Under the pieces are notes generated by a model. That model saw only the letters and a program-made list of their open reading frames with translations, was not told the origin of the DNA and made no database searches. Position numbers and translations under genes: made by a program. From assembly GCA_034766995.1 (NCBI GenBank), contig CM068325.1:7928825-7992824 (forward strand): a stretch of 64,000 nt of DNA, given 5' to 3'. Shown here one piece after another: positions 23,986 to 54,192 of the stretch (position 1 is the first letter of the stretch; each line of letters starts with the position of its first letter). Source of the stretch: Acanthacorydalis orientalis. Taxonomy: Eukaryota > Arthropoda > Insecta > Megaloptera > Corydalidae.

Positions 23986-23989
23986 AGCT

Positions 23990-25467: not shown

Positions 25468-26503
25468 GTTTTATTTAAGCAAAATAATATAAATATAACA
25501 ATACAGAACTTAATTCAGATATATCGCAAGATCAAAGATGTAGAGAATAAAAAAAAAACTAATATAACATATTAAAAAGGCACTTAAAATATGGTACATA
25601 AGATTTATAAAAAACAAATTAAAATCTATGTTCTTATTCAGCTGTTTCCTCGCCAAAATTCTGTAGTTGGGCCAGGGTCGGCGCTGCCGCTGGTGGAGGC
25701 GGGGTAGTGTCCGGCGGATGGTATTGCCGGACCCCGGACACGTGTTCGATGTAGACATCACGAGACCAGCGGATCGTGTCGGCCACCATCAGCTTGGCCA
25801 TCGTGGACGGGTACCGAGGTGCGATGCCCAGAGAATCCGCGACCTTGTCGTTCGACGAGTGCCAACCGCCGAGCGAACCGACGACGAATGCATCCACGGA
25901 CACCGTGAAACACTGCAGGGTGAGCTGGGCAGCAAGACCGCTATACTGCTATTTTCTGCTGCCGAGCCCCCTTCAGGGCGTCACGGCATCCCTCAAATGG
26001 AATGCACACGTCGACGATCGTTATCCTCGGTGTCGGCCCACGCCAGTGGAGTCCGCTCCTCGCGGAAGCAGCGATTGAAAATATAAGTGATGACAACACA
26101 CCCCGGGTCGAGACGCTTCAAGAAAGATTATTTAATTCCGTCTCTTCCCGGGGCGGTGTCCTTCGTCCGGGCCAACCAGCGAAGTACAGATTCCGCCGAG
26201 AATTCTTCAACGAAGGAATCCTCGGCCACGTCGCACTGCGGGCGGTTAAACGCCTGTCGAACGAGATCGGGCATCTCCACCTCCTCCCGGTCCCGTTCGG
26301 CAAACATCCTACGGAAGTGGTCTTCTACCACCGCCGTGGGCGCCTCACAGTACGGCTTGCCGTTCTCTGAACGGAGAATCTGCACCATCGCTTTTCGCTT
26401 GTTGACCCGGTACAGTTTTTGGATTTTCGCTGCCTCCACGGGGTCGAAGTTCGGTACTTCGTTTACCGGTCGCCGACGCTCCCGGCGAACAGGTCTTGCG
26501 TTT
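25468..26503 (-). mobile_element. Utopia-type element with ~1.9 kb internal deletion (G)
   Basis: It carries the 3' UTR (25468-25633) and the protein C-terminus (25634-26027). At about 26028 it jumps to the N-terminal part of the reverse transcriptase (26029-26503; ARPVRRERRRPVNEVPNFDPVEAAKIQKLYRV at its start). The deletion removes the RT core, the CCHC finger and most of the endonuclease. The 5' side is lost at about 26503, where AT-rich sequence and microsatellites begin. It is dead. Fragment E in the other arm starts at the same breakpoint (GAGGATAAC). Confidence 0.9.
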
Positions 26504-26544
26504 TTCAATGATATTTAACAATAATAATTTATAGGAACATTGAT

Positions 26545-26547
26545 GAT

Positions 26548-26604
<57 letters not shown>

Positions 26605-26918
26605 AGGGTATATGTATATGTATATATATATATATGTCTGTGTATGTGTATGTGTGTATGTGTATGTGTATGCGTATGCGTGTATGTGTATGTGTGTATG
26701 TGTACGAGTATGTGTTTGTGTGTATGTGTTTGTGTGTGTTTGTGTGTATGTGTGTATGTGTATGTGTGTATGTGTATATGTGTATATGTGTATGTGTATG
26801 TGTTGATGTGTATGTGTGGATGTGAATGTGCGTATGTGTGTATGTGTACGTGTGTATGTGATGTGTGTGTGTGTTTGCGTGTGTGCGCGTGTTGTCGCGC
26901 GTGTGTGTGTGTATGTAT

Positions 26919-26955
<37 letters not shown>

Positions 26956-26984
26956 GTATTTATATATATATGTATATATATATA

Positions 26985-27019
<35 letters not shown>

Positions 27020-27045
27020 CATATATATATATATATATATATTCA
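26545..27045. repeat. Compound microsatellite (TA)n, (TGTATG)n, (TA)n
   Basis: About 500 bp of TA, then TG/TATG-type repeats, then TA again. Long Tyr-Ile or Cys-Val open frames across it are artefacts. A shorter version occupies the matching place in the right arm. Confidence 0.95.
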
Positions 27046-27484
27046 TGGTTGGTTGTGGAATTGAAAAAGAATTTGTGAAAGTGAATTAATTAGTGCCACA
27101 ATTATTTTGTGAGATTTCTTGTAGTAATCGCAATTTTATAATGCAAGTGTTTACTGTGTTGTTTTTTTCTATTTTAAATTGAGTGGCTGCTCGATACTAT
27201 GTTGGAATTTATATTTTTTTTTTTTTAGTTTTATAACTTCAGAAATATATTTCTTACTGGTTTATACATTTCTTTGTTGTATTATATATTATGGCTATTT
27301 AAATTATACGTATAACAAAAAATGACTGTCGTTAGAAAGATGGTTGTTCGGTGAGGGCTTTTCGAGAGAGACTCCCTGCAAGCTTGGATCGACTTCAGCA
27401 GAGGGACATTTCAAATCAAAGAGACCTTCTCTCTTTTTATGATTCTGAGAGACTTTTTTGATATGTTTGAATTAAAGTAATGAA
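27046..27484. other. 3' flank of the left U2 gene
   Basis: No coding sequence. The stretch is matched in reverse complement at 52700-53135. It includes the U2 3' flank, where a snRNA 3' box would be expected, but none was assigned. Confidence 0.5.
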
Positions 27485-27636
27485 GGCCGGACCCGGCGGT
27501 ACTGCAATACCGGGCCAACCCGCGGCGGAGGTGGAGCAAGCTCCTCTAAAAGCACTCCGCCATTTTGCAAAAATCAGTTTAATATACTGGTCCTGCAATG
27601 CAGAACGTATCAGATATTAAGCTGATAAGAACAGAT
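27485..27636 (-). ncRNA. U2 snRNA gene, 3' portion, left copy
   Basis: The minus strand from 27636 reads the U2 snRNA from ATCTGTTCTTATC (branch-site-proximal region) through the Sm-site region and stem III (GGAGCTTGCTCC) to stem IV (GGCCCGGTATTGCAGTACC), ending near 27485. This is U2 from about nucleotide 41 onward. With the 61-nt 5' portion it gives about 192 nt, the normal U2 length. It is separated from its 5' portion by about 6.9 kb of Utopia sequence, so this gene cannot give a functional U2. Confidence 0.95.
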
Positions 27637-29794
27637 TAAGCAATTTTTATTTAGGTAATAATTGTTACAAAAGAAATACAGAGCATAGTACAAAATGTCG
27701 CAGATCAAAGTGTAGATGATAATTAAAAAAAAATGACAAACATTAAAAGCCAATAGGACATTTAAAACAAGTTAAAATAAAAATCAGTGTTCTTGTACAG
27801 CTTGTTCGGTAGGATGTTGAGGCCGGGTCGGCGCTGCCGCAGGTGGAGGCGGGGTATTGTCCGGAGGATGATATTGCCGGACTCCGGACACGTGTTCGAT
27901 GTAAACATCTCGGGACCAGCGGATCGTGTCGGCCACCATCAGCTTAGCCATCGTGGACCGGTACCGGGGTGCGATGCCCAAGGACGCCGCGACCCTGTCG
28001 TTCGACGACAGCCAACCGCCGAGCGAACCGACGACGAATGCGTCCACGGACACCGTGAAACCCTGCAGGGTGAGCTGGGCAGCAAGACCGCTATATTTGG
28101 TTATTTTCTGCTGCCGGGCCCCCTCCAGGGCGTCACGGCATCCCTCAAATGGAATGCACACGTCGACGATTGTTACTCTCCTCGTCGCCTCGTCGATCCT
28201 CACGATGTCAGGACGCAGGTGACTGTCGACTCCCGGAACCTCCTTGTTGACCCTGATGGTGATGGGTCCGCCCACTTTGGCCGCACGCGACAGACGGTTT
28301 TGTACGTTGTTGTGTCTGTGCTGCCATGCTGCCGAATGGACCGTACAGTGGTTGAGGACGTGCGGCAACGTCTCGTTGGCGTAGCCGCAACGTCGGCACC
28401 GTTTATCCCCATGTCCGAACCGGCGCGTGCCATTAAGTGGCACGACGTCAAGCCGAGCACGGTGGATAAAGCGGTACTCGCAGAACCGCGTATACTTTCC
28501 ATTCAGTAGAAAGTGGTTGGAGATCGATGTCTTCCCGGTCGTTTCGATCACCTTGCCCTGATCACGTAGGCCGACGAGTCGGCGATGGTGGTATGCTCGG
28601 ACGGCCGCTCTTAACGAGCGAAGCGCAAAGGCGCGCGACGCCTCCGGGACCACCACACGATCCGGCACCTGTCCCGGGCGGCCGATGACGATCGACATAT
28701 CCGCTGTGATGTCCGACCACCGGAAGCTTACATCCAGCTTGGCCCTGAGGCGGCGGCAGGCGTTCCGAGCCTGGGTCCATAGGCTCGAGACATCCCCCCC
28801 GTCACGCCCCAGGGCGCCCTCCAGCGACCCGCTCAGGTACGCCGCCAACATAGAATTGTCAGGCTCGCCTCCAATCTTCCGCCTCGCTGCACGCCGAAGG
28901 CCCGCCCAAGCCACCGTCCTGACCACTTCGTCTGGGCAGGACAGCAGGCGGAAAGCATGTACCACCCGGCTCACGTCCGCGGAGTCGCCGAGTTGGAGCA
29001 AATTTGCACCCCCCTGGTACGATGTTATGTATAAAATATCGGCTGAGGCCCTCTGCGGTAAGTTCATCCACTTCTTCGCCTTGCTTCGAATGATCTTATC
29101 CAGCTCCGTGAGGGGACCCTTTCGGATATTGCACCCACGGAGCGCGAAGTCAAGACGGGAGAGGATGAACATATTGAGAGCCTCTAGTTTTTGCCAGGGG
29201 GCCAGGAGGGAGTGGTGTAACCGCATAACGTCCCCCCTAATGTTATTGATAGTTTGGAGGGGGGTCTGGGTTACGCGGAACCCAGTGGGTACACCAAGAT
29301 GTTCATAATGTTCTCCCTCCTGTAGAGCTTCCAACCGGTCTCCCAGGAGCGTGAATCGGGTGTCGCACGCCCTCCTCTTGCGCCGGCAGTCGACGTGGAG
29401 CGAGGCACACTTGGAGGCGTTAAACTTGATACCCATCCAGGCGGCAGCCGCGCCCACCTCGTCCAGCAAGGATTGCATGGACGAGGGGTCCTTGGCGAGG
29501 AGCACCACGTCGTCGGCGTACGCCAGGATCGAGAAATGTTGTTCGAATAGCTGGTAGCCGTGAGACCCAGCCATGCCGAGGGCCGCCCTCACCAGCGGCT
29601 CGATGGCCAAGTTGAACAGCATGGGGGAGAGCGGGCAGCCTTGCTTTACCCCGGCACGGATTGGAATCGGCTGGGTCTCCCCAGCCGATGTCCGAACCGT
29701 GGTAAAAGCTCGGGAGTAAAGTTCGGCAACCACGCCCTGTAGCTTCCCAGGCAAATTCAACAGGGAGAGCACCCGCCGTATATGACCGTGCGGA
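27637..29794 (-). mobile_element. Utopia-type element, 5'-truncated (B)
   Basis: It keeps the 3' UTR (27637-27783) and codons from the middle of the reverse transcriptase to the stop (27784-29794). It starts inside the RT at the PHGHIRRVLSLLNLPGKLQ region. Upstream it is joined to U2 sequence at 29795, at a position deeper in U2 (after GCAAAATG) than the normal insertion site. Its protein is practically identical to the C-terminal half of copy D in the other arm. Confidence 0.9.
27784..29794 (-). pseudogene. Utopia protein, C-terminal half (RT core to endonuclease)
   Basis: The open frame includes the RT catalytic box AYADDVVLLA, the thumb, the CCHC finger CRRCGYANETLPHVLNHC and the restriction-like endonuclease region RPDIVRIDEATRRVTIVDV. 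The N-terminal zinc fingers and the first RT motifs are missing and the frame has no native start codon. An ORF call beginning at 29832 would start inside U2 sequence. Confidence 0.9.
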
Positions 29795-29870
29795 CATTTT
29801 GCAAAAATCAGTTTAATATACTGGTCCTGCAATGCAGAACGTATCAGATATTAAGCTGATAAGAACAGAT
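29795..29870 (-). ncRNA. U2 snRNA internal segment between two Utopia copies
   Basis: 76 nt of U2 (ATCTGTTCTTATC to GCAAAATG, about nucleotides 41-116) lie between the 3' end of copy A and the truncated 5' end of copy B. The first 21 bp are the target duplication of copy A. The same U2 segment recurs intact at 27561-27636. Confidence 0.95.
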
Positions 29871-32800
29871 TAAGTAATTTTTATTTTCAGCAAATAATTA
29901 CAAATGTAGGAATACAGAACTTAGTTAAAATATCGCAAGATCAAATGTGTATAGGATTAAAAACCAAACTAACATAACATATTAAAAAAACAATTAAAAT
30001 ATGGTACAATAACATTTTCTTTTAAAACAAATTAAAATCATTGTTCTTATGCAGCTATGTCCTCGGCTAGGTGTTGGGCCAGGGTCGGCGCTGCCGCTGG
30101 TGGAGGCGCGGTATTGTCCGGCGGATGGTATTGCCGGACTCCGGACACGTGTTCGATATAGACATCACGAGACCAGCGGATAGTGTCGGCCACCATCAGC
30201 TTAGCCATCGTGGACAGGTACCGGGGTGCAATTCCCAGGGACGCCGCGACCTTGTCGTTCGATGACAGCCAACCGCCGAGCGAACCGACGACGAATGCAT
30301 CCACGGACACCGTGAAACCCTGCAGGGTGAGCTGGGCAGCAAGACCGCTATACTTGGCTATTTTCTGCTGCCGAGCCCCCTCCAGGGCGTCACGACATCC
30401 CTCGAATGGAATGCACACGTCGACGATCGTTATCCTCCTCGTCGTCTCGTCGATCCTCACGATGTCAGGACGAAGGCGACTGTCGACTCCCGGAACCTCC
30501 TTATTGACCCGGATGGAAATGGGTCCGCCCACTTTGGCAGCACGCGACAGACGGTTCTGTACGTTGTTATGTCGGTGCTGCCATGCAGCCGAATGGACCG
30601 TACAGTGGTTGAGGACGTGCGGCAACGTCTCATTGGCGTAGCCGCAACGTCGGCACCGTTTATCCCCGTGCCCGAATCGGCGCGTGCCATTAAGTGGCAC
30701 GACGTCGAGCCGAGCGCGGTGGATAAAGCGGTACTCGCAGAACCGCGTGTACTTTCCATTCAGCAGAAAGTGGTTGGAGATCGGTGTCTTTCCGGTAGTC
30801 TCGATCACCTTGCCTTGGTCGCGAAGGCCGACGAGGCGACGATGGTGATATGCTCGGACGGCCGCTCTCAACGAACGAAGTGCAAAAGCCCGCGACGCCT
30901 CCGGGACCACCACACGATCCGGCACCTGTCCAGGGCGGCCGATGACGACCGACAAGTCCGCTGTGTCGTCGGACCACCGGAAGCTGACATCCAGCTTGGC
31001 TCTGAGGCGGCGGCAGGCGTTTCGAGCCTGGGTCCATAGACTCGAAACATCCCCACCGTCACGCCCCAGAGCACCCTCCAGTGACCCGCTCAGGTACGCC
31101 GCCAGCATAGAGTTATCGGGCTCGCCTCCAATTTTCCGCCTCGCTGCACGTCGAAGGCCGGCCCAAGCCACTGTCCTGACCACTTCGTCTGGGCAGGACA
31201 GTAGGCGGAAAGCGTGCACCACCCGGCTCACGTCCGCGGAGTCACCTAGTTGGAGCAAATTTGCACCCCCCTGGTACGATGTTATATATAGAATATCAGC
31301 GGAGGCCCTCTGCGGTAAGTTCATCCATTTCTTCGCCTTACTTCGTATGATCTTATCCAGCTCCGTGAGGGGACCCTTTCGGATATTACACCCACGGAGC
31401 GCGAAGTCAAGACGAGAAAGGATGAACATGTTGAGGGCCTCTAGTTTTTGCCAGGGGGCCAGGAGGGAGTGGTGTACCCGCATAACGTCCCCCCTAATGT
31501 TTTTAATAGTTTGTAGGGGGGTCTGGGTTACGCGGAACCCAGTGGGTACACCTAGATGTTCGTAATGATCTCCCTCCTGCAGAGCTTCCAACCGGTCTCC
31601 CAGGAGCGTGAATCGGGTGTCACACGCTTTCCTCTTGCGCCGGCAGTCGACGTGAAGTGAGGCGCATTTGGAGGCGTTAAACTTGATACCCATCCAGGTG
31701 GCGGCCGCGCCCACCTCGTCCAGCAATGATTGCATGGACGAGGGGTCCTTGGCGAGGAGCACCACGTCGTCGGCGTACGCCAGGATCGAGAAATGATGAT
31801 CAAATAGTTGGTAGCCGTGTGACCCGGACATACTGAGGGCCGCCCTCACCAGAGGCTCGATGGCCAAGTTGAACAGCATGGGGGAGAGCGGGCAGCCTTG
31901 CTTTACCCCGGCACGGATCGGAATCGGCTGGGTCTCCCCAGTCGATGTCCGAACCGTGGTAAAAGCCCGGGAGTAAAGTTCGGCAACCACACCCTGCAGC
32001 TTCCTGGGCAAGTTCAACAGGGAAAGCACCCGCCGTATGTGGCCGTGAGGAACAGACCCGAACGCGTTGGCAAGGTCAAGCCATGCCAGCACGATCTGTC
32101 TGCCCTCACGACGTGCGTCATCAAGGGCACTCTGGACCACGAAGTTGTGTTCGTAACACCCCTCGTGCTCCAGGAATCCTTTCTGCACTGGCGAAATGTT
32201 CCTCGTTGTCTTCGCCCACGAAGCCACCCTGTCAGCCAGGACCCCAGCATACAACTTGGACATCGTGCCACCGAGCGTGAGCGGCCTCCAGTTGTCCAAA
32301 TCGTCACGGCTACCCTTTTTGTGCACGAGCACCGTCCGGGTGTCGGCCCACGCCAGTGGAGTCCTCTCCTCGTGGAGGCAGCGATTAAAAATATATGTTA
32401 GTACAACACACCCCGGGTCGAGACGTTTCAAGAAAGAATATTTAATTCCGTCTCTTCCCGGGGCGGTGTCCTTCGTCCGGGCCAACCGGCGAAGTACAGA
32501 TTCCGCCGAGAATTCTTCAACGAAGGAATCCTCGGCCACGTCGCACTGCGGGCGGTTAAACGCCTGCCGAACGAGATCGGGCATCTCCACCTCCTCCCGG
32601 TCCCGTTCGGCAAACATCCCACGGAAGTGGTCCTCGACCACCGCCGTGGGCGCCTCGCAGTACGGCGTGCCGTTCTCGGAACGGAGAATCTGCACCATCG
32701 CCTTACGCTTGTTGACCCGGTACAGTTTTTGGATTTTCGCTGCCTCCACGGGGTCGAAGTTCGGTACTTCGTGTACCGGACGCCGACGCTCCCGCCGAAC

Positions 32801-34522
32801 AGGTCTTGCGTTCGGGAAGCGTCGGTGCCGTGGACCTTCCACTGGCGTCGGTCGCAGCCGGGCGAGCTCGTGCGTGACGATCTCCAGTGCCCGTTCGAAG
32901 TCATCCCAATCGGCCGCCTCCCGCAGGAGACCGAGCCACCGAACCTGGTTGTCCGTCAACCGGACAGCCGGGTCGGCGGCTGGCTCCTGCGTGCGTTCCG
33001 CGACAGCGACGTCGGCGAGAGCGGGTGTTATAAAATCAATCACGCTCTCGTCGGCGCCGTCGTCTTGGGAAGACGTCGCCCGGGCACTGTGATCGCCACC
33101 TCGATCACCAGCGCACGCGACGGCATGGCGCTCCCCGCCAACCGGGCGTTCAGCCTCCAGCTGGATGGGAGCCTCGATGGTGTTATGATGGCTGGCGGCG
33201 ACCTGAAGCGGGACACCTGCTGCAGATGCCGCTTCCGGTGCTCCGCCGAGATGTCTAGTCCGGGAACCTCGCGCCTCCTGATCTTCCAGCGGCGTCGCTC
33301 CAGCAGGGCAATCGGCCGGTGGGGCAGTGATGGTGGTGTCGGTGCTGGCCTCCGTGATGCGTGAAACAAGAGCTGTGCCACGAAGACTCGCCTCCTGGGA
33401 CGCCAACACTGCTCGTCCGGTCGATGTTGTCGGTGGGGCTGTGGCCGGCTGCTGAGTAGGATGTTGAACGGCAGCCGGTTCAGGGACCCTCTGCTGGCGA
33501 CGTCTCGACCGCGAGGCGATACTCGTCGAGGCAGCCGGCTCGGGTGTTGTTTGCCGGCTGCCGATCGCTAGCTGTGTAGAAGCCTCTCCCTCGATGGTGA
33601 TTTCGGTCGCGGCTGCTTCCCCTGCCCGTCTCGTGGGGATCCACCATGTATCAATAGATTTTAGGTGGTGGATCCCCTGCGGGATTGTCGGGGCAGCCGT
33701 GACGACCGATACGGGAGAGGCTGGCGGTGAGGTTGGCGCCGGATGTTGTGGCGCCACGTCGCCGCAGGTCTTATGATGGATCTTCATCCTCTTCAGACTC
33801 GGGTCCTTGAGTCCACAGCCCGAGCAGGTAAAGATGAAAACAGGCGTCCCGTGAGTCTTCTTGATGTGCTTCTTGTAGTCGCTGTGCGATTTGTATATGA
33901 AAGAGTTTCTAATACCCGCACAGCGAACTACATTCCGTACAGAGTGGCACAGCTCACACGCAAATTCCTCCGGCAAAGGCACCGTAACATATATTCTTAC
34001 TTTGCCGGGGGATAACGGAGGCGATGCACCACCGGTGGCCATCGTCGGATAGTGGATTTCTCAGTTTAAATTAAGAAAAATTAAACACAAAACAATAAAA
34101 GAACACGTTAAAAGAGGCCACGTAATGTTCTAAAATATATTTTAGAGCAGATGTGACCTTTTAAAACTTAACAAATAAAACTAGGAGATTGTGTAACTGA
34201 AGGTTACACAATCTCAGACGAACACGACGAATCACACGTTAAAATTCACACCACGTAACAAGAGTTACGTGGGCAATACGAAAGAATTTAAAACAAATCT
34301 ATAATATTGATCGAACCTATCGAAAATTACGATGGCTCGACCAATATTTAAGATATATAAAAAAACAAAAATAGAAAAAAAAGAAAGAGAATGAAACACA
34401 CGAACACGTACTGAGAAATCAAGTAACCGACGATGGCTTGCCCGACTGTCCTGCTGGTCCTGGTGGAGGCGGATGTTGTTACCTCCAGGATCCGACCGTG
34501 GCTCACGCGCGAGGAAGATGAA
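29871..34522 (-). mobile_element. Utopia-type U2-specific non-LTR retrotransposon, full length (A)
   Basis: 4652-bp element inserted in U2. It has a ~480-bp 5' leader, one long ORF, and a ~175-bp 3' UTR ending AAAATTACTTA without a poly-A tail. It is bounded by a perfect 21-bp duplication of U2 sequence at 34523-34543 and 29850-29870 (starts ATCTGTTCTTATC, ends GCTTAAT on the minus strand). The single ORF with a restriction-like endonuclease and exact U2 targeting match the Utopia lineage. Copies are transcribed in the U2 sense direction, so U2 promoter read-through is plausible. Confidence 0.95.
30047..34042 (-). CDS. Utopia ORF: zinc finger, reverse transcriptase, restriction-like endonuclease (1331 aa)
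   Basis: Protein for target-primed reverse transcription. The start is the ATG at 34042 (MATGGASPP), preceded by CCGACG and conserved in copies D and F. Residues ~29-64 hold a first zinc finger (C29, C32, H59, H64), and ~73-93 a second (CSGC ... HHKTC). ~100-440 is a Pro/Ala/Thr-rich linker of low complexity. ~470-860 is the reverse transcriptase, with DTAPGRDGIKY, WRPLTLGG, AWLDLANAFGSV (first catalytic Asp), GVKQGCPLSPMLF and AYADDVVLLA near residue 755. ~1128-1145 is the CCHC finger CRRCGYANETLPHVLNHC. From ~1190 comes the restriction-like endonuclease (RPDIVRIDE ... IVDV). There are no stops or frameshifts, all key residues are present, and the copy may be competent. Confidence 0.95.
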   Translation of the reverse strand: MATGGASPPLSPGKVRIYVTVPLPEEFACELCHSVRNVVRCAGIRNSFIYKSHSDYKKHIKKTHGTPVFIFTCSGCGLKDPSLKRMKIHHKTCGDVAPQHPAPTSPPASPVSVVTAAPTIPQGIHHLKSIDTWWIPTRRAGEAAATEITIEGEASTQLAIGSRQTTPEPAASTSIASRSRRRQQRVPEPAAVQHPTQQPATAPPTTSTGRAVLASQEASLRGTALVSRITEASTDTTITAPPADCPAGATPLEDQEARGSRTRHLGGAPEAASAAGVPLQVAASHHNTIEAPIQLEAERPVGGERHAVACAGDRGGDHSARATSSQDDGADESVIDFITPALADVAVAERTQEPAADPAVRLTDNQVRWLGLLREAADWDDFERALEIVTHELARLRPTPVEGPRHRRFPNARPVRRERRRPVHEVPNFDPVEAAKIQKLYRVNKRKAMVQILRSENGTPYCEAPTAVVEDHFRGMFAERDREEVEMPDLVRQAFNRPQCDVAEDSFVEEFSAESVLRRLARTKDTAPGRDGIKYSFLKRLDPGCVVLTYIFNRCLHEERTPLAWADTRTVLVHKKGSRDDLDNWRPLTLGGTMSKLYAGVLADRVASWAKTTRNISPVQKGFLEHEGCYEHNFVVQSALDDARREGRQIVLAWLDLANAFGSVPHGHIRRVLSLLNLPRKLQGVVAELYSRAFTTVRTSTGETQPIPIRAGVKQGCPLSPMLFNLAIEPLVRAALSMSGSHGYQLFDHHFSILAYADDVVLLAKDPSSMQSLLDEVGAAATWMGIKFNASKCASLHVDCRRKRKACDTRFTLLGDRLEALQEGDHYEHLGVPTGFRVTQTPLQTIKNIRGDVMRVHHSLLAPWQKLEALNMFILSRLDFALRGCNIRKGPLTELDKIIRSKAKKWMNLPQRASADILYITSYQGGANLLQLGDSADVSRVVHAFRLLSCPDEVVRTVAWAGLRRAARRKIGGEPDNSMLAAYLSGSLEGALGRDGGDVSSLWTQARNACRRLRAKLDVSFRWSDDTADLSVVIGRPGQVPDRVVVPEASRAFALRSLRAAVRAYHHRRLVGLRDQGKVIETTGKTPISNHFLLNGKYTRFCEYRFIHRARLDVVPLNGTRRFGHGDKRCRRCGYANETLPHVLNHCTVHSAAWQHRHNNVQNRLSRAAKVGGPISIRVNKEVPGVDSRLRPDIVRIDETTRRITIVDVCIPFEGCRDALEGARQQKIAKYSGLAAQLTLQGFTVSVDAFVVGSLGGWLSSNDKVAASLGIAPRYLSTMAKLMVADTIRWSRDVYIEHVSGVRQYHPPDNTAPPPAAAPTLAQHLAEDIAA

Positions 34523-34583
34523 ATTAAGCTGATAAGAACAGATACTACACTTTGATCTTAGCTCGAAGGAGCCGAGAAGCGAT
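34523..34583 (-). ncRNA. U2 snRNA gene, 5' portion, left copy
   Basis: The minus strand from 34583 reads ATCGCTTCTCGG, a stem-loop I (GCTC CTTC GAGC), then AAGATCAAAGTGTAGTATC, which includes the branch-point recognition GTAGTA. It ends with ATCTGTTCTTATCAGCTTAAT, after which the retrotransposon begins. It matches insect U2 except for a slightly longer stem I. The gene is interrupted after nucleotide 61. Confidence 0.97.
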
Positions 34584-36909: not shown

Positions 36910-36958
<49 letters not shown>

Positions 36959-37560: not shown

Positions 37561-37564
37561 TTGA

Positions 37565-39925: not shown

Positions 39926-39927
39926 AC

Positions 39928-41357: not shown

Positions 41358-41364
41358 CTTACGG

Positions 41365-41850: not shown

Positions 41851-42759
41851 GATCAAAATATTGATTATTTTAGCTAAAAAAATCACGACACTATTAAATA
41901 CCCAAATACGATTCTGTATTAAATTCTGATAGAAGACAGAAAGAAAATCAAATAATAATTATTTGTCACAGTTAATATAATTAATGAGATAGTGGTCGGT
42001 TATTAGCAAAAAATCTAAGAACGTTAATAAACATGTTTGTTGCAACAGGAAAGAAATTCAATATTAAAAAGAGACAAAAAATATGATAGGTAGGAGGTAG
42101 AGTATATGTAATTATACTGTCACACTGCCTCTGAGAGCCATGCTAAACGTACTGCAACCCTGGCCATCCCGCTCTTTTATTGTTCATATTCATCAGTGCA
42201 CTAGTAAAAAATATTTTTGATTGTTTAAAAAAGAATCATTGATACATTTTTTTCAGTACATAATTTTGTGTTGTAAATGCAAGCAATCATCACGAAACAA
42301 CTGAAGAGATTAATATTTTATAAACAAGTTTATCTTATTAGTATCGAAATTATCAAAATACCGTTCGAACACATGTCTAACACTGTCTAAATTCATTTTT
42401 GCAAACAAATTCTTTTTCACCTTCCATAAATTACAAAAAAAAACATGTTCTATCAAAAAATGTCAATAAACGTTTGTTGATCAATTTTGATCATTGCTTA
42501 TGCACATTTCATTCGTTATTATCATCATCAGAATACTAAAATAAAGAACAATATTTTTTTTAATTTTCGAAACAAATATATTTTTTTAAAAAAATAACAT
42601 TTCTATATAATTTTAAACACTGATATAAATATTTTCAGAGTATATATGAACTTTATCTATGATATTTTCATTTATATCTTTTAAATGGATTTAAGAAATA
42701 TTTTGTATTTAAAGAAATGCAATGAACCTATTCGCATGAATTAAAGAATAGGATAGACA

Positions 42760-43380
42760 TGTGGCCAGGCATTTAAAGGGACAAGTCCTTTCATACCTGT
42801 AAAGTTACCATTTTTAAATTCTCAAGCTTAAAAAGACAGTTTTCGAAGAACAATATTACCTCTCTAATCATCAGTAATGAACAAATACCAATAATCGTTT
42901 CACTGTCACTTAACAGTAAATGCGGAAAATTCGAAAAGTTACCGTTTCATACCTCGAATCGGTAGCCATTTTTAAACATCCGAGTGTAACACAAGATCCT
43001 CCCTACTGATCAGTGTACAAAGAAGCACGCGCCCGTTCGCACGATTATTTGCACTTGTTCGTGGATCTACTCTGTAATTCGAACAGTATTCGAATGCCCG
43101 TTTTCAATATAATCGAAAGTTTTATGAAAAAGTGTTCAGTTTTATATTAATCATAAAATTTTATATTAAAAACGAACGCTCAGAGTGCAAGTGTTTGTGT
43201 ATATTTGGAAGTTTTTGCGGTTCAATTAAAACAATGCGGAGTTTCGTTCGGTCGGTAAGTATTTTTAATCCGGTTATGATTTTTTAACACTTATTTCATA
43301 AAATGTTGAAAGTTGTATTTAAATTTATATTCAGAGTTGAATTTTTACTCTTCGGAATCGTAAAAAAAATCCTGATCAAA
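42760..43380 (+). repeat. Leader/first-exon-like module, copy R1
   Basis: Partner of L1. The ATG at 43234 opens MRSFVRS, followed by GTAAGTAT at 43255. Inr-like GTGTTCAGTTTTATATT lies about 100 bp upstream. Confidence 0.5.
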
Positions 43381-46322
43381 ATATTGATTGCTCTAGCTAT
43401 AACTTATATATGTATTTCGATTGGGATTCGATCTTAGCAATAACAGAGAGAAATTCAAATCCAAAATTCTTTTTTACCACACAAAATGTTTTTCTAGTCG
43501 AAAATGTTCAATAAAACATTATTGATATTTTTTAATTGTCGCTCATTCGCCGAAATTCTCCTGTACATCAACATCAAAATTGTCAAAAATCACTTTCAGA
43601 AATGAATTCTCTTTTACCGCACAACCCATGAATTGTTTTTCTAATCCAAAATGTCCAATAAAACAATCAACACTTAATTCTCGACATATCAACACTTCCG
43701 ATGAAATTAAAAGAACCGGTAAAATAAATGGTAAAATTAGATTCTTGTATCCTGTAATCGTTACTTTTTTTTTAAAGGAACGTTTTGTATATTAGCTCAA
43801 AACTTTTTAATGAAAAGTATCTGTTTTTTTTTTTTTTTTTGATACCTTAGAGGTCTAAAGGTAACATCGCCATCGAAATAAAGCTACAACCAAAAATCAT
43901 TATTAAACATTTTTGATTAAATATAATTGATTTCTTTGCGGCGAATATGTACGAATATTTTATTTAATACTAAATTTGTATATATATATATATATAAATT
44001 TTAAATCCGTAATATTTCTTTTTCTTCATTCGTTATAGATATATTAGTCTTGTCACTGAACTCTGAACAAACCTGATATCAAATCACCATATAAACCGCC
44101 GGTGAAAAAATCGATGAAGTCTGCTTTCAATAGAGAAAATAACAAATACAGACAATAATAACGAGAAGGTATCACTAATTTTTTTTTATTTAAATTTTCT
44201 TTAAGTATTTTGTTCGAATTCAATTTCAAAATAAAGAGAAAACAATACTTTATTCTACAAACCGTGACGTCTCTATCTCTGTTTACAAATAAGTTTGAAA
44301 AGTTTCACTGAATTTCACAAAACAAACAAATACATACCGATCCCGAATATGTAACCGGGTTTGAAATACGTCTACACTCAATTTCCCCAATTTCTGAATG
44401 TTTCTGTATCTAGTTTTTCAATTTTAATATCTTATTTGTTCAAAACTACGAAGAGTCAATGAAAAATTATATTTCTCTCTCTTCGTCACTCGGAAGACAT
44501 ATAAATATTAGGATCGATTCTATGTGCAATTGAAAAGAATTTGATTTTTATATTTTCATATTTTACGCCTACACTTATGGGAAGTGCCACACGTTGTCGA
44601 ATATCTCGAAGAATATTTTAAAACGAAACTAAAAATTGTTTTAAGTCTTCGAGTATTTAGTTCATGAACAGATGAGTTTCTTTGAAATGTCATTGTAATG
44701 ACCTGTACACCGCTTCGGCAAAATTAACATCGACAGACAGTCGCTAACGCGAAACACTAAAAATTTATTAAATATATGCTCTTTCGCTCATTTCCTACAG
44801 CATCTTCCAATTTATTTTTCGTAGAGTATACAAAGCTGTTAACTATACCAATCATTGTGCGCTCTTTGTATTATTATAGTATCTTTGTGTATAGTGTTGT
44901 CACATTTAACACATCGAAAAGTATGTTGAATATTGTAATTGTTATGACTAAATAACGATAATTGTCATAAATATAATATAACAAAAGCATACAAATTTTT
45001 ATAACTAACACACATTCCTTCTTTCTCACACTCCTTTTTTTTGTATTATTCGAACTCATTCTAATCGCAACGTGCAGCTGTCAAGTAATGATATTATAGT
45101 AATCATCACACGAAAAATATGTTGAATATTAGCAATGAATAAGATTTATTTTTAATAATTATCACAAAAACTAATACAAGTATGTTTTTTTTTTATTCAC
45201 ATTTAATTTCAGTTATTAATTTCCGTCCGACTGTAACCAAAAAATATTACAGTGAAAGGAGCAACAGATTCTAAAGTATTATAACTATCTCTTTCCCACT
45301 TGCACTCTTCTCTTCTATATTATTATTCTCACTCATTCATTTCTTAACGTCGTAACTGTCACTTATCAATACTGATTATATTATAGTTGCTTATCACATA
45401 AAAAATATCAGTCAGATTAAAAACAGAGATAATTTTTGTTTTGTAGAAGACATGTGTTTTCGCTTATTATATTCGCAGATACTTTATTGTTTTCTCGAAT
45501 AGATTCGATGCGAAATCAATACTGATATTGTTGTAGTAAAACATTTAAATGTTCTTTTACAACATGTTAACAGTTAATAACGCTGCCTCATGTTACTTTT
45601 TACCTAGTTGCTAGCATAGATTAAGTATGTTGTTAGGGTTGCTAGCTATGGTTATCTTAAAGATAAAACTAATAGATACACTGTCGTGCAGATGTCTGGC
45701 ATTAGTGTGTGATATTCACTCGATCTGTTCTCGGTTATGTAGATGCTAAATATTTAATAAATTGTTTTCATGTTAATGAATTAGTTCAGTTAATATATAC
45801 ACCTGCAATTCATCAACGGATATAAAACACATTTTGGATTTAAAAATAAAATATATAACACGTTCTACATGACATGTGTTTGCATTTGATGATATGAATG
45901 ATTATTTTGGCAATAGACGATTGAATGTAAAAATACGCGCTTTTTCGAAATCTTAAATTTCGTTTTTCCCATATACTTTTCGATTTTAATCATTCTTTAT
46001 TAGATATTCAGTCCGTTTCGAATTAAATCACGTTTATTTTTCAGTTTTTTAAGATGCGGTTTTTCGTCGCAAGTTCGGTGTTGCGAGGAGGAACCGATTG
46101 TAATGGATCCTTTCCGAAATATTGATTCTGTAGAGTAATCTCTGTTTGTGTCTCCGCTGTACGTTCAGTGCGGAACTGAACATGCTCGCGGTACCATCTA
46201 GCTCGCGGTTCCGGACTATTTCTCCCCATACGAGATTAATCGTATCGTACGACTGCGAGATCCTTTCGCAGTAAAACCGCACGTTGTTCCGTGTGAAAAA
46301 CGATTGAAAATCCTTTTCCTTT
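43381..46322. other. Non-coding arm sequence and 5' flank of the right U2 gene
   Basis: Reverse complement of about 34584-37560. It contains the partner of the 61-codon frame (44874-45059, minus). No gene was assigned. Confidence 0.45.
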
Positions 46323-46383
46323 ATCGCTTCTCGGCTCCTTCGAGCTAAGATCAAAGTGTAGTATCTGTTCTTATCAGCTTAAT
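46323..46383 (+). ncRNA. U2 snRNA gene, 5' portion, right copy
   Basis: Same 61 nt as the left copy: ATCGCTTCTCGG, stem I, GTAGTA branch-point recognition, ending GCTTAAT. It is interrupted at exactly the same nucleotide by Utopia sequence. Confidence 0.97.
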
Positions 46384-47988
46384 TTTTTTTTCCATCTTCC
46401 CCGCGCGAGAGCCACGGTCGGAGGGAACAACACCCGCCTCCACCGCGACCAGCAGAACAGACGGGCAAGCCATCGTCCGAAAGGGTCCCCTCACGGAGCT
46501 GGATAAGATCATACGAAGTAAGGCGAAGAAATGGATGAACTTACCGCAGAGGGCCTCCGCTGATATTCTATATATAACATCGTACCAGGGGGGTGCAAAT
46601 TTGCTCCAACTAGGTGACTCCGCGGACGTGAGCCGGGTGGTGCACGCTTTCCGCCTACTGTCCTGCCCAGACGAAGTGGTCAGGACAGTGGCTTGGGCCG
46701 GCCTTCGACGTGCAGCGAGGCGGAAAATTGGAGGCGAGCCCGATAACTCTATGCTGGCGGCGTACCTGAGCGGGTCACTGGAGGGTGCTCTGGGGCGTGA
46801 CGGTGGGGATGTTTCGAGTCTATGGACCCAGGCTCGAAACGCCTGCCGCCGCCTCAGAGCCAAGCTGGATGTCAGCTTCCGGTGGTCCGACGACACAGCG
46901 GACTTGTCGGTCGTCATCGGCCGCCCTGGACAGGTGCCGGATCGTGTGGTGGTCCCGGAGGCGTCGCGGGCTTTTGCACTTCGTTCGTTGAGAGCGGCCG
47001 TCCGAGCATATCACCATCGTCGCCTCGTCGGCCTTCGCGACCAAGGCAAGGTGATCGAGACTACCGGAAAGACACCGATCTCCAACCACTTTCTGCTGAA
47101 TGGAAAGTACACGCGGTTCTGCGAGTACCGTTTTATCCACCGCGCTCGGCTCGACGTCGTGCCACTTAATGGCACGCGCCGATTCGGGCACGGGGATAAA
47201 CGGTGCCGACGTTGCGGCTACGCCAATGAGACGTTGCCGCACGTCCTCAACCACTGTACGGTCCATTCGGCTGCATGGCAGCACCGACATAACAACGTAC
47301 AGAACCGTCTGTCGCGTGCTGCCAAAGTGGGCGGACCCATTTCCATCCGGGTCAATAAGGAGGTTCCGGGAGTCGACAGTCGCCTTCGTCCTGACATCGT
47401 GAGGATCGACGAGACGACGAGGAGGATAACGATCGTCGACGTGTGCATTCCATTCGAGGGATGTCGTGACGCCCTGGAGGGGGCTCGGCAGCAGAAAATA
47501 GCCAAGTATAGCGGTCTTGCTGCCCAGCTCACCCTGCAGGGTTTCACGGTGTCCGTGGATGCATTCGTCGTCGGTTCGCTCGGCGGTTGGCTGTCCTCGA
47601 ACGACAAGGTCGCGGCGTCCCTGGGAATTGCACCCCGGTACCTGTCCACGATGGCTAAGCTGATGGTGGCCGACACTATCCGCTGGTCTCGTGATGTCTA
47701 TATCGAACACGTGTCCGGAGTCCGGCAATACCATCCGCCGGACAATACCGCGCCTCCACCAGCGGCAGCGCCGACCCTGGCCCAACACCTAGCCGAGGAC
47801 ATAGCTGCATAAGAACAATGATTTTAATTTGTTTTAAAAGAAAATGTTATTGTACCATATTTTAATTGTTTTTTTAATATGTTATGTTAGTTTGGTTTTT
47901 AATCCTATACACATTTGATCTTGCGATATTTTAACTAAGTTCTGTATTCCTACATTTGTAATTATTTGCTGAAAATAAAAATTACTTA
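46384..47988 (+). mobile_element. Utopia-type element with large internal deletion (A')
   Basis: A ~100-bp 5' leader start (46384-46482) is joined directly to the middle of the RT thumb (RKGPLTELDKIIRSKAKKW, from about 46483), then continues to the 3' UTR (to 47988). Its C-terminal protein is the same as copy A in the left arm. Its leader, however, matches copy D (CCGCGCGAGAGCCACGGTCGG) and not copy A. It sits between U2 nucleotide 61 and a second 21-bp target copy at 47989-48009. Confidence 0.9.
46483..47812 (+). pseudogene. Utopia protein, C-terminal third
   Basis: Open frame from the RT thumb to the stop, including CRRCGYANETLPHVLNHC and the endonuclease region RPDIVRIDETTRRITIVDV. It lacks the N-terminal fingers and all RT catalytic residues. 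It matches the left-arm full copy residue for residue over the compared part, showing recent common origin or conversion. Confidence 0.9.
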
Positions 47989-48009
47989 ATCTGTTCTTAT
48001 CAGCTTAAT
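47989..48009 (+). repeat. U2 target-site duplication between A' and D
   Basis: 21 bp of U2 (ATCTGTTCTTATC ... GCTTAAT) separate the 3' end of A' from the 5' end of D, proving that both were inserted at the same U2 position one after the other. Confidence 0.95.
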
Positions 48010-51000
48010 TTTTTTTTCCATCTTCCCCGCGCGAGAGCCACGGTCGGAGGGAACAACACCCGCCTCCACCGCGACCAGCAGAACAGACGGGCAAGCCATC
48101 GTCGGTTACTGGATTTCTCAACACGTGTTCGTGCCGTTCTTCTTTTCTTGAAGTGTCTTAAGTGTTTGTTGTGACTAAATTTCTTTTCCTTATCACCCAG
48201 TGCGTGCTTGTGTCGCCAAATTCTTTAGTGCCACCAACGACGAACCAACGTTCGCTCAAGTCTAAATTCTTTTTTGCCACCCACGTCGAACCATCGTTCA
48301 GTACGTGCTCACGTCTAAATTCTTTTGGCGCCACCCACGTAACCTCTTGACTACGTGACGTAAATTTCATCGTGCTCGCCGGAGATTGTAGTGACACAAT
48401 CTCTAAATTTTAATTAATAAATTTTCAACTGAGAACTCCAATAACCGACGATGGCCACCGGTGGTGCATCGCCTCCGCTATCCCCCGGCAGAGTGAGAAT
48501 CTACGTAAAGGTGCCTTTGCCGGAGGAATTCGCGTGCGAACTGTGCCGCGTCGAACGGACTGTAGTCCGCTGTGCGAGTATTAGGAACTGTTTCAAATAC
48601 AAATCGCACAGCGACTACAAGAAGCACGTAAAAAAGACCCACGGGACGCCCGTCTTCATCTTCACGTGCTCGGGCTGTGGACTCGAGGATCCAAGCCTTA
48701 AGAAGGTGAAAAAACACCACAGGACCTGCGACGACGTGGCGCCACAGCATCCGGCGCCGTCCTCACCGCCAGCCTCCCCCACATCAGTCGACACGGCTGC
48801 CCCGACAATCCCGCAGGGGATCCACCAGCTAAAATCTATTGTTACACGGCGGATCCCCACTAGACGGGCAAGGGCAGCAGCGACCGAAACCAACATCGAG
48901 GGAGAGGCCTCTGCACACCAAGCGATCGGCAGCCGGCAAACACCATCCGAGCCGGCTGCCTCAACGAGCATCGCCCCGCGGCTGAGACGTCGCCAGCAGA
49001 GGGTCCTCGAACCGGCTGCCACTCAACACCCGACTCAGCAGCCGGCCACAGCCCCGCCGGCAACATCGACCGGACAGGCAGCGTTGGCGTCCCGGAACGC
49101 GAGTCTTCGTGACACAGTACCTACGACACGCATCACGGAGGCTAACACCGACACCAACATCACTGCCCCACCGGCCGACTGTCCTGCTGGAGCGACGCCG
49201 CTGGTGGAACGGAATGCGCGGGGTTCACGGAACGGACATCACGGCGGAGCACCGGAAGCGACATCTCAAGTAGGTATCCCGCTTCGGGTCGCCGCCAGCC
49301 AGCATAAAACCATCGAGGCTCCCATCCGGCCGGCGGCTGAGTGCCCGGCTGGCGGGGGGCTCCGTGACGGCGCGTGTGCTAGCGATCGAGGTGGCGATCC
49401 CACCGCCCGGGCGACGTCCTCCCAGGACGACGGCACCGACGAGAGCGTGATTAATTTTATAACGCCCGCTCTCGCCGACGCCGCCGTCACGGAGCACGCG
49501 CGGGGGCCAGTTGCCGACCCGGCTGCCCGTCTTACGGACAACCAGGTTCGGTGGCTCGGTCTCCTGCGCGAGGCGGCCGATTGGGATGGCTTCGAGCGGG
49601 CGCTGGAGACCGTCACGCGCGAGCTCGCCCGGCTGCGACCGGCGCCGGTGGAAGGTCCGCGGCACCGACGCTTCCCGAACGCAAGACCTGTTCGACGAGA
49701 GCGTCGGCGACCGGTAAACGAGGTACCAAACTTCGACCCCGTGGAGGCGGCGAAAATACAAAAATGAACGGCACGCCGTACTGCGAGGCGCCCACGGCGG
49801 TGGTCGAGGACCACTTCCGTGGAATGTTTGCCGAACGGGATCGGGAGGAGGTGGAGATGCCCGATCTCGTTCGACAGGCGTTCAACCGCCCACAGTGCGA
49901 CGTGGCCGGGGATTTCTTCGTTGAAGAATTCTCGGCGGAAGCTGTACTTTGCAGGCTGGCCCGGACGAAGGACACCGCACCGGGAAGAGACGGAATTAAA
50001 TATTCTTTCTTGAAACGTCTCGACCCGGGGTGCGTTGTCATCACTTATATTTTTAATCGCTGCTTTCGCGAGGAGCGGACCCCACTGGCGTGGGCCGACA
50101 CCCGGACGGTGCTCGTACACAAAAAGGGTGGCCGGGAGGACTTGGACAACTGGAGGCCGCTCACGCTTGGTGGCGTGATGCCTAAGTTGTATGCTGGGGT
50201 CCTGGCGGACAGGGTGGCTTCGTGGGCGAAGGCGACGGAAAGCATCTCGCCAGTGCAGAAAGGGTTCATGGAGCACGAGGGGTGTTACGAACACAACTTC
50301 GTGGTCCAGAGCGCCCTTGATGACGCACGCCGTGCGGGCAAACAGATCGTACTGGCATGGCTCGACCTTGCCAACGCGTTCGGGTCTGTTCCGCACGGTC
50401 ATATACGGCGGGTGCTCTCCCTGTTGAATTTGCCTGGGAAGCTACAGGGCGTGGTTGCCGAACTTTACTCCCGAGCTTTTACCACGGTTCGGACATCGGC
50501 TGGGGAGACCCAGCCGATTCCAATCCGTGCCGGGGTAAAGCAAGGCTGCCCGCTCTCCCCCATGCTGTTCAACTTGGCCATCGAGCCGCTGGTGAGGGCG
50601 GCCCTCGGCATGGCTGGGTCTCACGGCTACCAGCTATTCGAACAACATTTCTCGATCCTGGCGTACGCCGACGACGTGGTGCTCCTCGCCAAGGACCCCT
50701 CGTCCATGCAATCCTTGCTGGACGAGGTGGGCGCGGCTGCCGCCTGGATGGGTATCAAGTTTAACGCCTCCAAGTGTGCCTCGCTCCACGTCGACTGCCG
50801 GCGCAAGAGGAAGGCGTGCGACACCCGATTCACGCTCCTGGGAGACCGGTTGGAAGCTCTACAGGAGGGAGAACATTATGAACATCTTGGTGTACCCACT
50901 GGGTTCCGCGTAACCCAGACCCCCCTCCAAACTATCAATAACATTAGGGGGGACGTTATGCGGTTACACCACTCCCTCCTGGCCCCCTGGCAAAAACTAG

Positions 51001-52547
51001 AGGCTCTCAATATGTTCATCCTCTCCCGTCTTGACTTCGCGCTCCGTGGGTGCAATATCCGAAAGGGTCCCCTCACGGAGCTGGATAAGATCATTCGAAG
51101 CAAGGCGAAGAAGTGGATGAACTTACCGCAGAGGGCCTCAGCCGATATTTTATACATAACATCGTACCAGGGGGGTGCAAATTTGCTCCAACTCGGCGAC
51201 TCCGCGGACGTGAGCCGGGTGGTACATGCTTTCCGCCTGCTGTCCTGCCCAGACGAAGTGGTCAGGACGGTGGCTTGGGCGGGCCTTCGGCGTGCAGCGA
51301 GGCGGAAGATTGGAGGCGAGCCTGACAATTCTATGTTGGCGGCGTACCTGAGCGGGTCGCTGGAGGGCGCCCTGGGGCGTGACGGGGGGGATGTCTCGAG
51401 CCTATGGACCCAGGCTCGGAACGCCTGCCGCCGCCTCAGGGCCAAGCTGGATGTAAGCTTCCGGTGGTCGGACATCACAGCGGATATGTCGATCGTCATC
51501 GGCCGCCCGGGACAGGTGCCGGATCGTGTGGTGGTCCCGGAGGCGTCGCGCGCCTTTGCGCTTCGCTCGTTAAGAGCGGCCGTCCGAGCATACCACCATC
51601 GCCGACTCGTCGGCCTACGTGATCAGGGCAAGGTGATCGAAACGACCGGGAAGACATCGATCTCCAACCACTTTCTACTGAATGGAAAGTATACGCGGTT
51701 CTGCGAGTACCGCTTTATCCACCGTGCTCGGCTTGACGTCGTGCCACTTAATGGCACGCGCCGGTTCGGACATGGGGATAAACGGTGCCGACGTTGCGGC
51801 TACGCCAACGAGACGTTGCCGCACGTCCTCAACCACTGTACGGTCCATTCGGCAGCATGGCAGCACAGACACAACAACGTACAAAACCGTCTGTCGCGTG
51901 CGGCCAAAGTGGGCGGACCCATCACCATCAGGGTCAACAAGGAGGTTCCGGGAGTCGACAGTCACCTGCGTCCTGACATCGTGAGGATCGACGAGGCGAC
52001 GAGGAGAGTAACAATCGTCGACGTGTGCATTCCATTTGAGGGATGCCGTGACGCCCTGGAGGGGGCCCGGCAGCAGAAAATAACCAAATATAGCGGTCTT
52101 GCTGCCCAGCTCACCCTGCAGGGTTTCACGGTGTCCGTGGACGCATTCGTCGTCGGTTCGCTCGGCGGTTGGCTGTCGTCGAACGACAGGGTCGCGGCGT
52201 CCTTGGGCATCGCACCCCGGTACCGGTCCACGATGGCTAAGCTGATGGTGGCCGACACGATCCGCTGGTCCCGAGATGTTTACATCGAACACGTGTCCGG
52301 AGTCCGGCAATATCATCCGCCGGACAATACCCCGCCTCCACCTGCGGCAGCGCCGACCCGGCCTCAACATCCTACCGAACAAGCTGTACAAGAACACTGA
52401 TTTTTATTTTAACTTGTTTTAAATGTCCTATTGGCTTTTAATGTTTGTCATTTTTTTTTAATTATCATCTACACTTTGATCTGCGACATTTTGTACTATG
52501 CTCTGTATTTCTTTTGTAACAATTATTACCTAAATAAAAATTGCTTA
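48010..52547 (+). mobile_element. Utopia-type element, near full length (D)
   Basis: 4538-bp element with a complete 5' leader, ORF start, 3' UTR and correct U2 junctions on both sides (21-bp duplication at 47989-48009 and 52548-52568). The ORF is broken once by a short deletion near 49764. Its C-terminal half matches copy B of the left arm. Confidence 0.95.
48451..52400 (+). pseudogene. Utopia ORF with one frameshift
   Basis: It starts at the conserved ATG (MATGGASPP) and reads N-terminal zinc fingers and linker to 49767. A deletion of about 50 bp in the VEAAKIQK region shifts the frame and creates a stop there. From about 49765 the second frame continues NGTPYCEAPTAVV through the complete reverse transcriptase (AWLDLANAFGSV, AYADDVVLLA), the CCHC finger and the endonuclease to 52400. 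All catalytic motifs remain, but on a separate frame from the DNA-binding region, so the copy is probably inactive alone. Confidence 0.95.
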
Positions 52548-52699
52548 ATCTGTTCTTATCAGCTTAATATCTGATACGTTCTGCATTGCAGGACCAGTAT
52601 ATTAAACTGATTTTTGCAAAATGGCGGAGTACTTTTAGAGGAGCTTGCTCCACCTCCGCCGCGGGTTGGCCCGGTATTGCAGTACCGCCGGGTCCGGCC
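52548..52699 (+). ncRNA. U2 snRNA gene, 3' portion, right copy
   Basis: U2 from ATCTGTTC (nucleotide ~41) to stem IV GGCCCGGTATTGCAGTACC, ending near 52699; same as the left 3' portion with small differences in the AGTACTTTTAGAGG part. Split from its 5' portion by about 6.2 kb. Confidence 0.95.
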
Positions 52700-53135
52700 T
52701 TCATTACTTTAATTCAAACATATCAAAAAAGTCTCTCAGAGTCATAAAAAGAGGTCTTTTTGATTTGAAATGTCCCTCTGCTGAAGTCGATCCAAGCTTG
52801 CAGGGAGTCTCTCTCGAAAAGCCCTCACCGAACAACCCTCTTTCTAACGACAGTCATTTTTTGTTATACGTATAATTTAAATAGCCATAATATATAATAC
52901 AACAAAGAAATGTATAAACCAGTAAGAAATATATTTCTGAAGTTATAAAACCAAAAAAAAAATATATATAAATTCCAACGTAGTATCGAGCAGCCACTCA
53001 ATTTAAAATAGAAAAAAACAACACAGTAAACACTTGCATTATAAAATTGCGATTACTACAAGAAATCTCACAAAATAATTGTGGCACTGTAATTAATTCA
53101 CTTTCACAAATTCTTTTTCAATTCCACAACCAACC
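52700..53135. other. 3' flank of the right U2 gene
   Basis: Reverse complement of 27046-27484; no gene seen. It includes a run of sequence conserved between arms right after U2 (CTTCATTACTTTAATTCAAA). Confidence 0.45.
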
Positions 53136-53136
53136 A

Positions 53137-53139
<3 letters not shown>

Positions 53140-53190
<51 letters not shown>

Positions 53191-53191
53191 C

Positions 53192-53233
<42 letters not shown>

Positions 53234-53355
53234 GCATATATATATATATGCATATATATACACATAGATTTACACTCACATACACACATACATACACACA
53301 CATCATATATAAACATATACATATACCCTTGTATATATATATATATATATATATT
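53140..53355. repeat. Compound microsatellite (TA)n and CATACA-type repeats
   Basis: TA tracts with a CACA/CATA interior; shorter partner of 26545-27045. Confidence 0.95.
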
Positions 53356-53397
53356 TGTATTTTGATCATCAATGTTCATATGAGGATAACGATCTTC

Positions 53398-53966
53398 AAT
53401 GAGGATAACGATCGTCGACGTGTGCATTCCATTTGAGGGATGCCGTGACGCCCTGGAGGGGGCTCGGCAGCAGAAAATAATAATAATAAAAGTATAGCGG
53501 TCTTCTTGCCCAGCTCACCCTCCAGGGTTTCACGATGTCCGTGGATGCATTCGTCGTCGGTTCGCTCGGCGGTTGGCTCTCGTCGAACGACAAGGTCGCG
53601 GCGTCACTGGGCATCGCACCCCGGTACCTGTCCACGATGGCCAAGCTGATGGTGGCCGACACGATCCGCTGGTCACGAGATATTTACATCGAACATGTTT
53701 CCGGGGCCCGGCAATACCATCCGCCGGACAACATCCCGCCTCCACCAGCGGCAGCGCCGACCCTGGCCCAACATCTTTCCGAGGAAGCAGCTGCTTAAGA
53801 ACATTGATTTTAATCTGTTTTTTAAAACGTTTATGTACCATATTTTAAGTTTCTTTAATATGTTATGTTAGTCTGCTTTTATTTTCTACCTTTGATCTTG
53901 CGATATTGTAATTAAGCTTTGTTCTATGGCATTTTTTCCACTTATTTTCTTAAATAAAATTTCTTA
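53398..53966 (+). mobile_element. Utopia-type element, 3' fragment (E)
   Basis: Starts at GAGGATAACGATCGTCGACG in the endonuclease region and runs to the C-terminal stop (53798) and the 3' UTR end (53966). A small ATA-repeat insertion near 53480 breaks the frame. It is followed by U2 sequence at the correct junction. Confidence 0.9.
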
Positions 53967-54071
53967 ATCTGTTCTTATCAGCTTAATATCTGATACGTCC
54001 TGCATTGCAGGACCAGTATATTAAACTGATTTTTTCAAAATGGCGGAGTGCTATTAGAGGAGCTTGCTCCA
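53967..54071 (+). ncRNA. U2 snRNA 3' fragment
   Basis: 105 nt of U2 from ATCTGTTC to GGAGCTTGCTCC, cut off by a TA microsatellite. This is the remnant of another U2 target, adjacent to fragment E. Confidence 0.9.
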
Positions 54072-54105
54072 TATGTATATATATATATGTATATATATAT
54101 GTATA

Positions 54106-54192
<87 letters not shown>

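Follow-up and report, generated by a model that had tools for sequence, protein, structure and literature searches.

The window analysed here is a 64,000-nucleotide stretch, free of N, of contig C13 (C13:7928825-7992824; C13 is 9,511,966 bp long) in a genome of 548 Mb and 27 contigs. It holds two U2 snRNA genes, each split by an inserted Utopia element, within an imperfect palindrome of about 28 kb. The original prediction of such a palindrome around a U2 gene and its parasite was borne out by self-blastn of the window, in which inverted blocks pair 26838-29794 with 53326-50390 (97.9% identity), 29795-34070 with 52623-48423 (88.7%), 29850-31383 with 48009-46476 (99.87%), 34429-38183 with 46477-42757 (95.8%) and 38180-39655 with 42856-41386 (94.9%), and by a control in which ten out of ten dinucleotide shuffles of the window contained no inverted match at E 1e-5. 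Inverted matches of at least 300 bp cover 13,640 of the 14,445 bases of the left arm and 12,094 of the 12,581 bases of the right arm. The U2 5' ends do face each other across ~11.7 kb, as had been claimed: the Rfam starts lie at 34583 (minus strand) and 46323 (plus strand), a gap of 11,740 bp. We refer to the palindrome in the window as P1 and use letters of our own (A, D, T, E, S, F1, F2, G) for segments in and around it. On the plus strand, starting from the left U2, the order is A-D-T-E-D-T, inverted S, then D-E-T-D-A, with the second D partial:

25468-39912, plus strand: left arm of the palindrome, including the outer Utopia arrays (self-blastn, coverage)
27477-27636, minus strand: U2 3' part, left arm (Rfam U2)
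34523-34583, minus strand: U2 snRNA 5' part, left arm, about nt 1-58 plus junction (Rfam U2)
34600-38036, plus strand: segments A and D, the U2-upstream DNA of the inner left arm
38037-38295, plus strand: segment T, with a 95-bp tandem repeat
38300-39150, plus strand: segment E
39155-39653, plus strand: second, partial copy of D, left arm
39654-39912, plus strand: second copy of T, forming the centre junction of the palindrome (T joined to inverted S)
39913-41386, minus strand: spacer S; most of it is collinear with DNA upstream of U2 at a single-arm locus on contig C2
41386-53966, minus strand: right arm of the palindrome (self-blastn, coverage)
41400-46306, minus strand: inner right arm, with D, E, T, D and A in mirror order
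46323-46383, plus strand: U2 snRNA 5' part, right arm (Rfam U2)
52548-52707, plus strand: U2 3' part, right arm (Rfam U2)

Judged by its sequence, the parasite is a Utopia-type retrotransposon at the published U2 site. The full-length copy in the left arm is open from stop to stop over 1337 aa (34060-30047); this frame has RVT_1 at residues 580-809, an alignment of residues 1079-1300 to the C-terminal portion of PDB R2 proteins, and an N-terminal zinc-finger stretch that aligns only weakly (2.5 bits). The frame therefore combines the reverse transcriptase, C-terminal restriction-like endonuclease and N-terminal zinc finger of Utopia, the finger match being weak; the motif names CCHC and PD..D are ones we presume to apply to it. 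The 3' flank begins at U2 nt 39, with junctions TTA/ATCTGTTC in which the A at nt 38 is ambiguous; for the numbering we assumed that of human U2, together with PMC4640811. Over residues 400-900, the 120 of 339 matches listed show 37-54% identity, and those named include turtles, a leafhopper and Nasonia. Keno, an APE-type U2 element, was rejected as an identification: the frame shows no apurinic-like endonuclease, its Pfam matches at E<=1 are RVT_1 and a weak zf-RVT only, and its C-terminus matches R2. A plasmid search with 301 bases of U2/Utopia DNA gave no match, and none of 73 pattern matches between the Utopia protein and viral contigs was confirmed.

Kojima and Jurka (2015, PMC4640811) described Utopia as a non-LTR retrotransposon of the restriction-like-endonuclease type whose 3' junction falls at U2 nt 39, and both class and junction are the same here. 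As far as that account goes, tandem copies in U2 are reported for Nasonia, and in the Phytophthora and Nasonia species it lists U2 genes are more often disrupted than intact, as they are at the present loci. The locus described here has target duplications of ~20 bp, a feature which that account gives for reptile families and denies for arthropod ones; it differs further in its truncated copies with 76- and 115-bp duplications and in its setting in a repeated palindrome, "palindrom" and "inverted" being absent from the main text of that article.

Both arms carry an array of a full-length and a 5'-truncated Utopia copy:

27637-29794, minus strand: 5'-truncated Utopia copy b, left arm
29795-29870, minus strand: target duplication of 76 bp that separates copy a from truncated copy b and comprises U2 from nt 38/39
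29871-34522, minus strand: full-length Utopia copy a, left arm, with a target duplication of ~20 bp
46363-46477, plus strand: 115-bp direct repeat, the target duplication of truncated copy a, identical to 47989-48103
46478-47988, plus strand: 5'-truncated Utopia copy a, right arm
48010-52547, plus strand: full-length Utopia copy b, right arm

The left arm thus reads U2(1-58), full copy a, 76-bp repeat, truncated copy b and U2 3' part, and the right arm U2(1-58) followed by ~95 bp from the 5' end of a Utopia, then truncated copy a, 115-bp repeat, full copy b and U2 3' part, the second copy of the 115-bp repeat being the start of full copy b. Target duplications measure ~20 bp (U2 nt 39-58) for the full copies and 76 and 115 bp for the truncated ones, the two repeat lengths including the ambiguous A at nt 38. 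These sizes suggest that a Utopia element can cleave the second strand at several distances (~20, 76 and 115 bp). Near 49765, full copy b is ~49 bp shorter than its relatives and its reading frame is interrupted. The two full-length copies are only 88.7% identical. Truncated copy b of the left arm differs from full copy b of the right arm by 2 mismatches in 2118 bp (27677-29794 compared), and truncated copy a of the right arm from full copy a of the left arm by 2 mismatches in 1511 bp; among the fetched loci, these opposite-arm copies are the closest sources, followed by P3 (7 mismatches and 2 gap positions) and P4 (4 mismatches), respectively. Each truncated copy may therefore derive from across the palindrome, a source that is not unique, since near-identical (99-100%) relatives of the left Utopia copy occur on C13 (2.44 and 0.25 Mb) and C8 (best 37 of 108 candidates). 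By these comparisons, the Utopia arrays were not copied along with the arms, each of which has its own full-length and truncated insertion. Of the matching landmarks that had been noted along the arms, those in the outer arrays stem for the most part from separate insertions at one U2 target site and do not belong to the mirror duplication.

Further Rfam U2 matches in the window lie at 27677-27477 and 29909-29738 on the minus strand and at 52507-52707 and 53959-54111 on the plus strand. Genome-wide, 25 of the best 46 U2 matches fall on C13 (46 of 45,346 first-look candidates scored). The fetched C13 loci contain ten U2 starts, in a count that allowed one mismatch and missed decayed starts; two are intact (P2-left and P5-left) and eight disrupted. 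Utopia follows nt 58 in five of the ten and a truncated Utopia follows ~nt 43 in one, while two (P2-right and P6-right) are broken near nt 50 by one common sequence. These last interruptions (L011 4286-4450, C13:7864286; L026 7132-7300, C13:8907132) carry a sequence that looks unlike the Utopia 5' ends of the window.

The palindrome, thought unusual from the window alone, is not unique, as spacer S marks at least nine sites on C13 (best 40 of 200 candidates scored). We inspected nine centres (P1, P2, P3, P4, P5, P6, P9, L035 and L036, the sequences of P5 and P9 being partial), and in every one a D piece leads into T, and T into inverted S. The D next to the centre is cut to its 262-503 part in four of them (P5, P6, P9 and L036). 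Beyond S, a mirror D-E arm follows in seven; in the remaining two, the match stops inside S at one common position. On one side of P4, A and the first D have been lost. Relatives of the U2-upstream DNA (34600-38090) on C13 are mostly 92-99% identical and often form inverted pairs, with a copy at 9.36 Mb at 82-87% (best 40 of 585 candidates scored; counts are lower bounds). Because the D-T-inverted S order is the same in all nine centres, a single origin of the palindrome, followed by copying, is most likely.

Likeness extends into the flanks. P1 has its left flank in common with P2, and its right flank, G, in common with P3; G is mostly dispersed mobile DNA (best 40 of 3888 candidates) and hence little informative, the sharing between P1 and P3 excepted. 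F1 and F2 lie on both sides of P6, whose arms reach ~20 kb, and F2 on both sides of P5. Save for short AT-rich pieces, F2 (21250-23812) is found on C13 only (best 40 of 2327 candidates), and the adjoining 23805-24500 is a dispersed repeat.

The U2 loci on C2 and C10 have one arm each, as far as fetched. There, relatives of the U2-upstream DNA, among the 40 scored candidates, are mostly 74-90% identical and, short AT-rich pieces aside, keep one orientation per locus. The single arm at 54.71 Mb on C2 reads A-D-S-T'-loop-T-E, in which T' and T form a 236-bp inverted repeat (95.8%), so that one single-arm locus has a short inverted repeat at the place of the palindrome centre. T'-loop-T-E was found at this single-arm locus only; the match at C2 54.62 ends before T, and the sequence of the C2 56.52 locus stops short of the T'/T region. 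The 54.71-Mb locus is not inversion-free, since another inverted repeat lies near its U2 (local 398-2634 versus 5360-4141, 77-81%), outside the segments shared with C13. On C13, the palindrome centre is inside T, which makes inverted-repeat-mediated recombination or template switching, with T' of one copy pairing with T of another, the likely origin. A centre at the edge of the second D and the spacer (~39.91 kb) had been considered and was dropped once the C2 locus was extended further. The D/T junctions on C13 share ACA with the C2 flanks, judged by eye, and resemble a loss of S-T'-loop. The D-T-E-D order in both arms points to a tandem D unit in the progenitor or to a later exchange between arms.

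We consider it probable that these features reflect a single T'/T inverted duplication, copying of the resulting palindrome along C13, and later, separate Utopia insertions in each arm. The short inverted repeat T'/T beside U2 would have mediated one inverted duplication of U2 and its upstream DNA, giving a palindrome with two divergent U2 genes that would then have been copied within larger segments to at least nine sites along the 9.5-Mb C13. Utopia would have inserted repeatedly at U2 nt 38/39, separately per arm and after the palindrome had formed; the intact U2 genes at P2-left and P5-left argue for this order, and could alternatively have been restored by exchange. Later copies, often 5'-truncated, would have landed beside earlier ones because each insertion leaves a duplicated target.

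In an alternative reading, a recent inverted duplication made the whole palindrome, Utopia arrays included, and arm-to-arm gene conversion keeps the arms alike. In its favour, the tracts 27500-29794/52623-50390 and 29850-31383/48009-46476 are ~99.9% identical, against ~97% (gaps excluded) for the arms outside Utopia. These tracts are the truncated copies, however, which have target duplications of their own (76 and 115 bp), and the full-length copies reach 88.7% only. Trees of the U2-proximal 1 kb (A1) and of A3-D each included the 10 of 14 arms from seven loci that passed the length cut, and all C13 arms in the arm alignments are 95-100% alike. For A1, P1-left groups with P2-left (99.1%, support 0.98) and P1-right with P3-right (99.4%, support 0.98), while P1-left and P1-right are 97.5% identical; the U2-proximal parts of P1 thus lie nearer to arms of other palindromes than to each other. 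A3-D is mixed: P1-left equals P2-left (100%), P1-right shows 98.5% identity to P1-left against 96.5% to P3-right, and the arms of P6 pair (98.7%, support 0.96), the latter two being what conversion would produce. In E, compared over 14 C13 arms and C2, P1-left pairs with P2-left (99.9%) and P1-right with P2-right (97.9%); the P5 arms pair with each other (99.4%, support 0.73), again in keeping with conversion, and the arms of P6 share 99.1% identity but are equally close to P5 and P9. Together with the intact U2 genes at P2-left and P5-left, the separate target duplications, the 88.7% of the full-length copies and the A1 groupings make a whole-palindrome duplication maintained by conversion unlikely in our view. 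The original prediction had said that such arms can undergo gene conversion; recent whole-arm conversion or homogenisation is not supported in the window, and local exchange between the P1 arms is possible, given the mixed A3-D segment.

That the mirror is an assembly artefact of collapsed or mis-joined haplotypes seems to us highly improbable: the related P4 does contain 5,000 N, but the window contains none, the arms differ in Utopia content, and the same centre order recurs at nine sites with private indels and insertions. The recurrence and the arm-private differences likewise speak against allelic haplotypes with one arm each, an outcome that had been named as fatal to the predicted palindrome. 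We also regard it as very unlikely that the single arms on C2 and C10 are remnants of broken palindromes and not ancestor-like. The C2 54.71 locus carries inverted repeats itself, as a remnant might, but on both C2 and C10 D runs straight into S, as expected without the D/T deletion, and their mostly 74-93% identity to C13 lies below the 95-100% among aligned C13 arms (82-87% for the 9.36-Mb copy).

A once-formed palindrome later colonised by Utopia, the history we favour, can be set beside known systems as far as the cited accounts describe them. Ampliconic palindromes of sex chromosomes, for example in willow (PMC7023750), likewise surround a multicopy gene with large inverted repeats and occur several to a chromosome, whereas here the arms are ~97% alike with little sign of whole-arm homogenisation, and the gene is an snRNA gene disrupted in eight of the ten copies seen with a 5' end in the fetched C13 loci. 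ODIRA-type inverted amplification (PMC4689423, PMC10766183) likewise creates a new inverted junction in a pre-existing short inverted repeat; the present case is evolutionary and not experimental, spread later to nine sites, and is compared by its junction. Among the papers listed, titles and abstract openings showed no precedent for a U2 palindrome. At the level of sequence, the locus would document how a palindrome can be born from a short inverted repeat, and the genome still contains its single-arm relatives. How several Utopia families are kept up on few U2 genes is described as poorly understood (PMC4640811), and palindromic amplification of the target gene would give Utopia spare U2 targets. 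U2 genes on B and sex chromosomes are a theme of the cytogenetic literature, which offers a lead on C13 but no test of its type. More speculatively, and with considerable doubt on our part, C13 may be a non-recombining chromosome (sex, B or similar) with a family of U2 palindromes whose arms serve as a mutual reservoir, Utopia reseeding the opposite U2 site; the palindrome would then favour the persistence of a parasite whose target gene is low in copy number.

Several smaller observations concern the window and its relatives. The stretch of C13 from 0.23 to 9.38 Mb repeats the same segments many times, in either orientation, and may belong to an ampliconic chromosome. At the point corresponding to window position 40485, the spacers of P2, P5, P6 and P9 carry an element of ~730 bp (copy 7974-8703) that P1, P3 and P4 lack. 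An ankyrin-repeat open frame (19043-20272), whose protein relatives are only 22-34% identical, lies inside F1, a segment found next to P2, P4 and P6 as well. Dense inverted and direct repeats fill 7-1947; a tRNA family matches weakly at 1311-1383 (32.8 bits), where ARAGORN called none. At 59488-62198, where an RT/RNase H element ends, there is a tandem duplication of ~1.35 kb, 98.2% identical.
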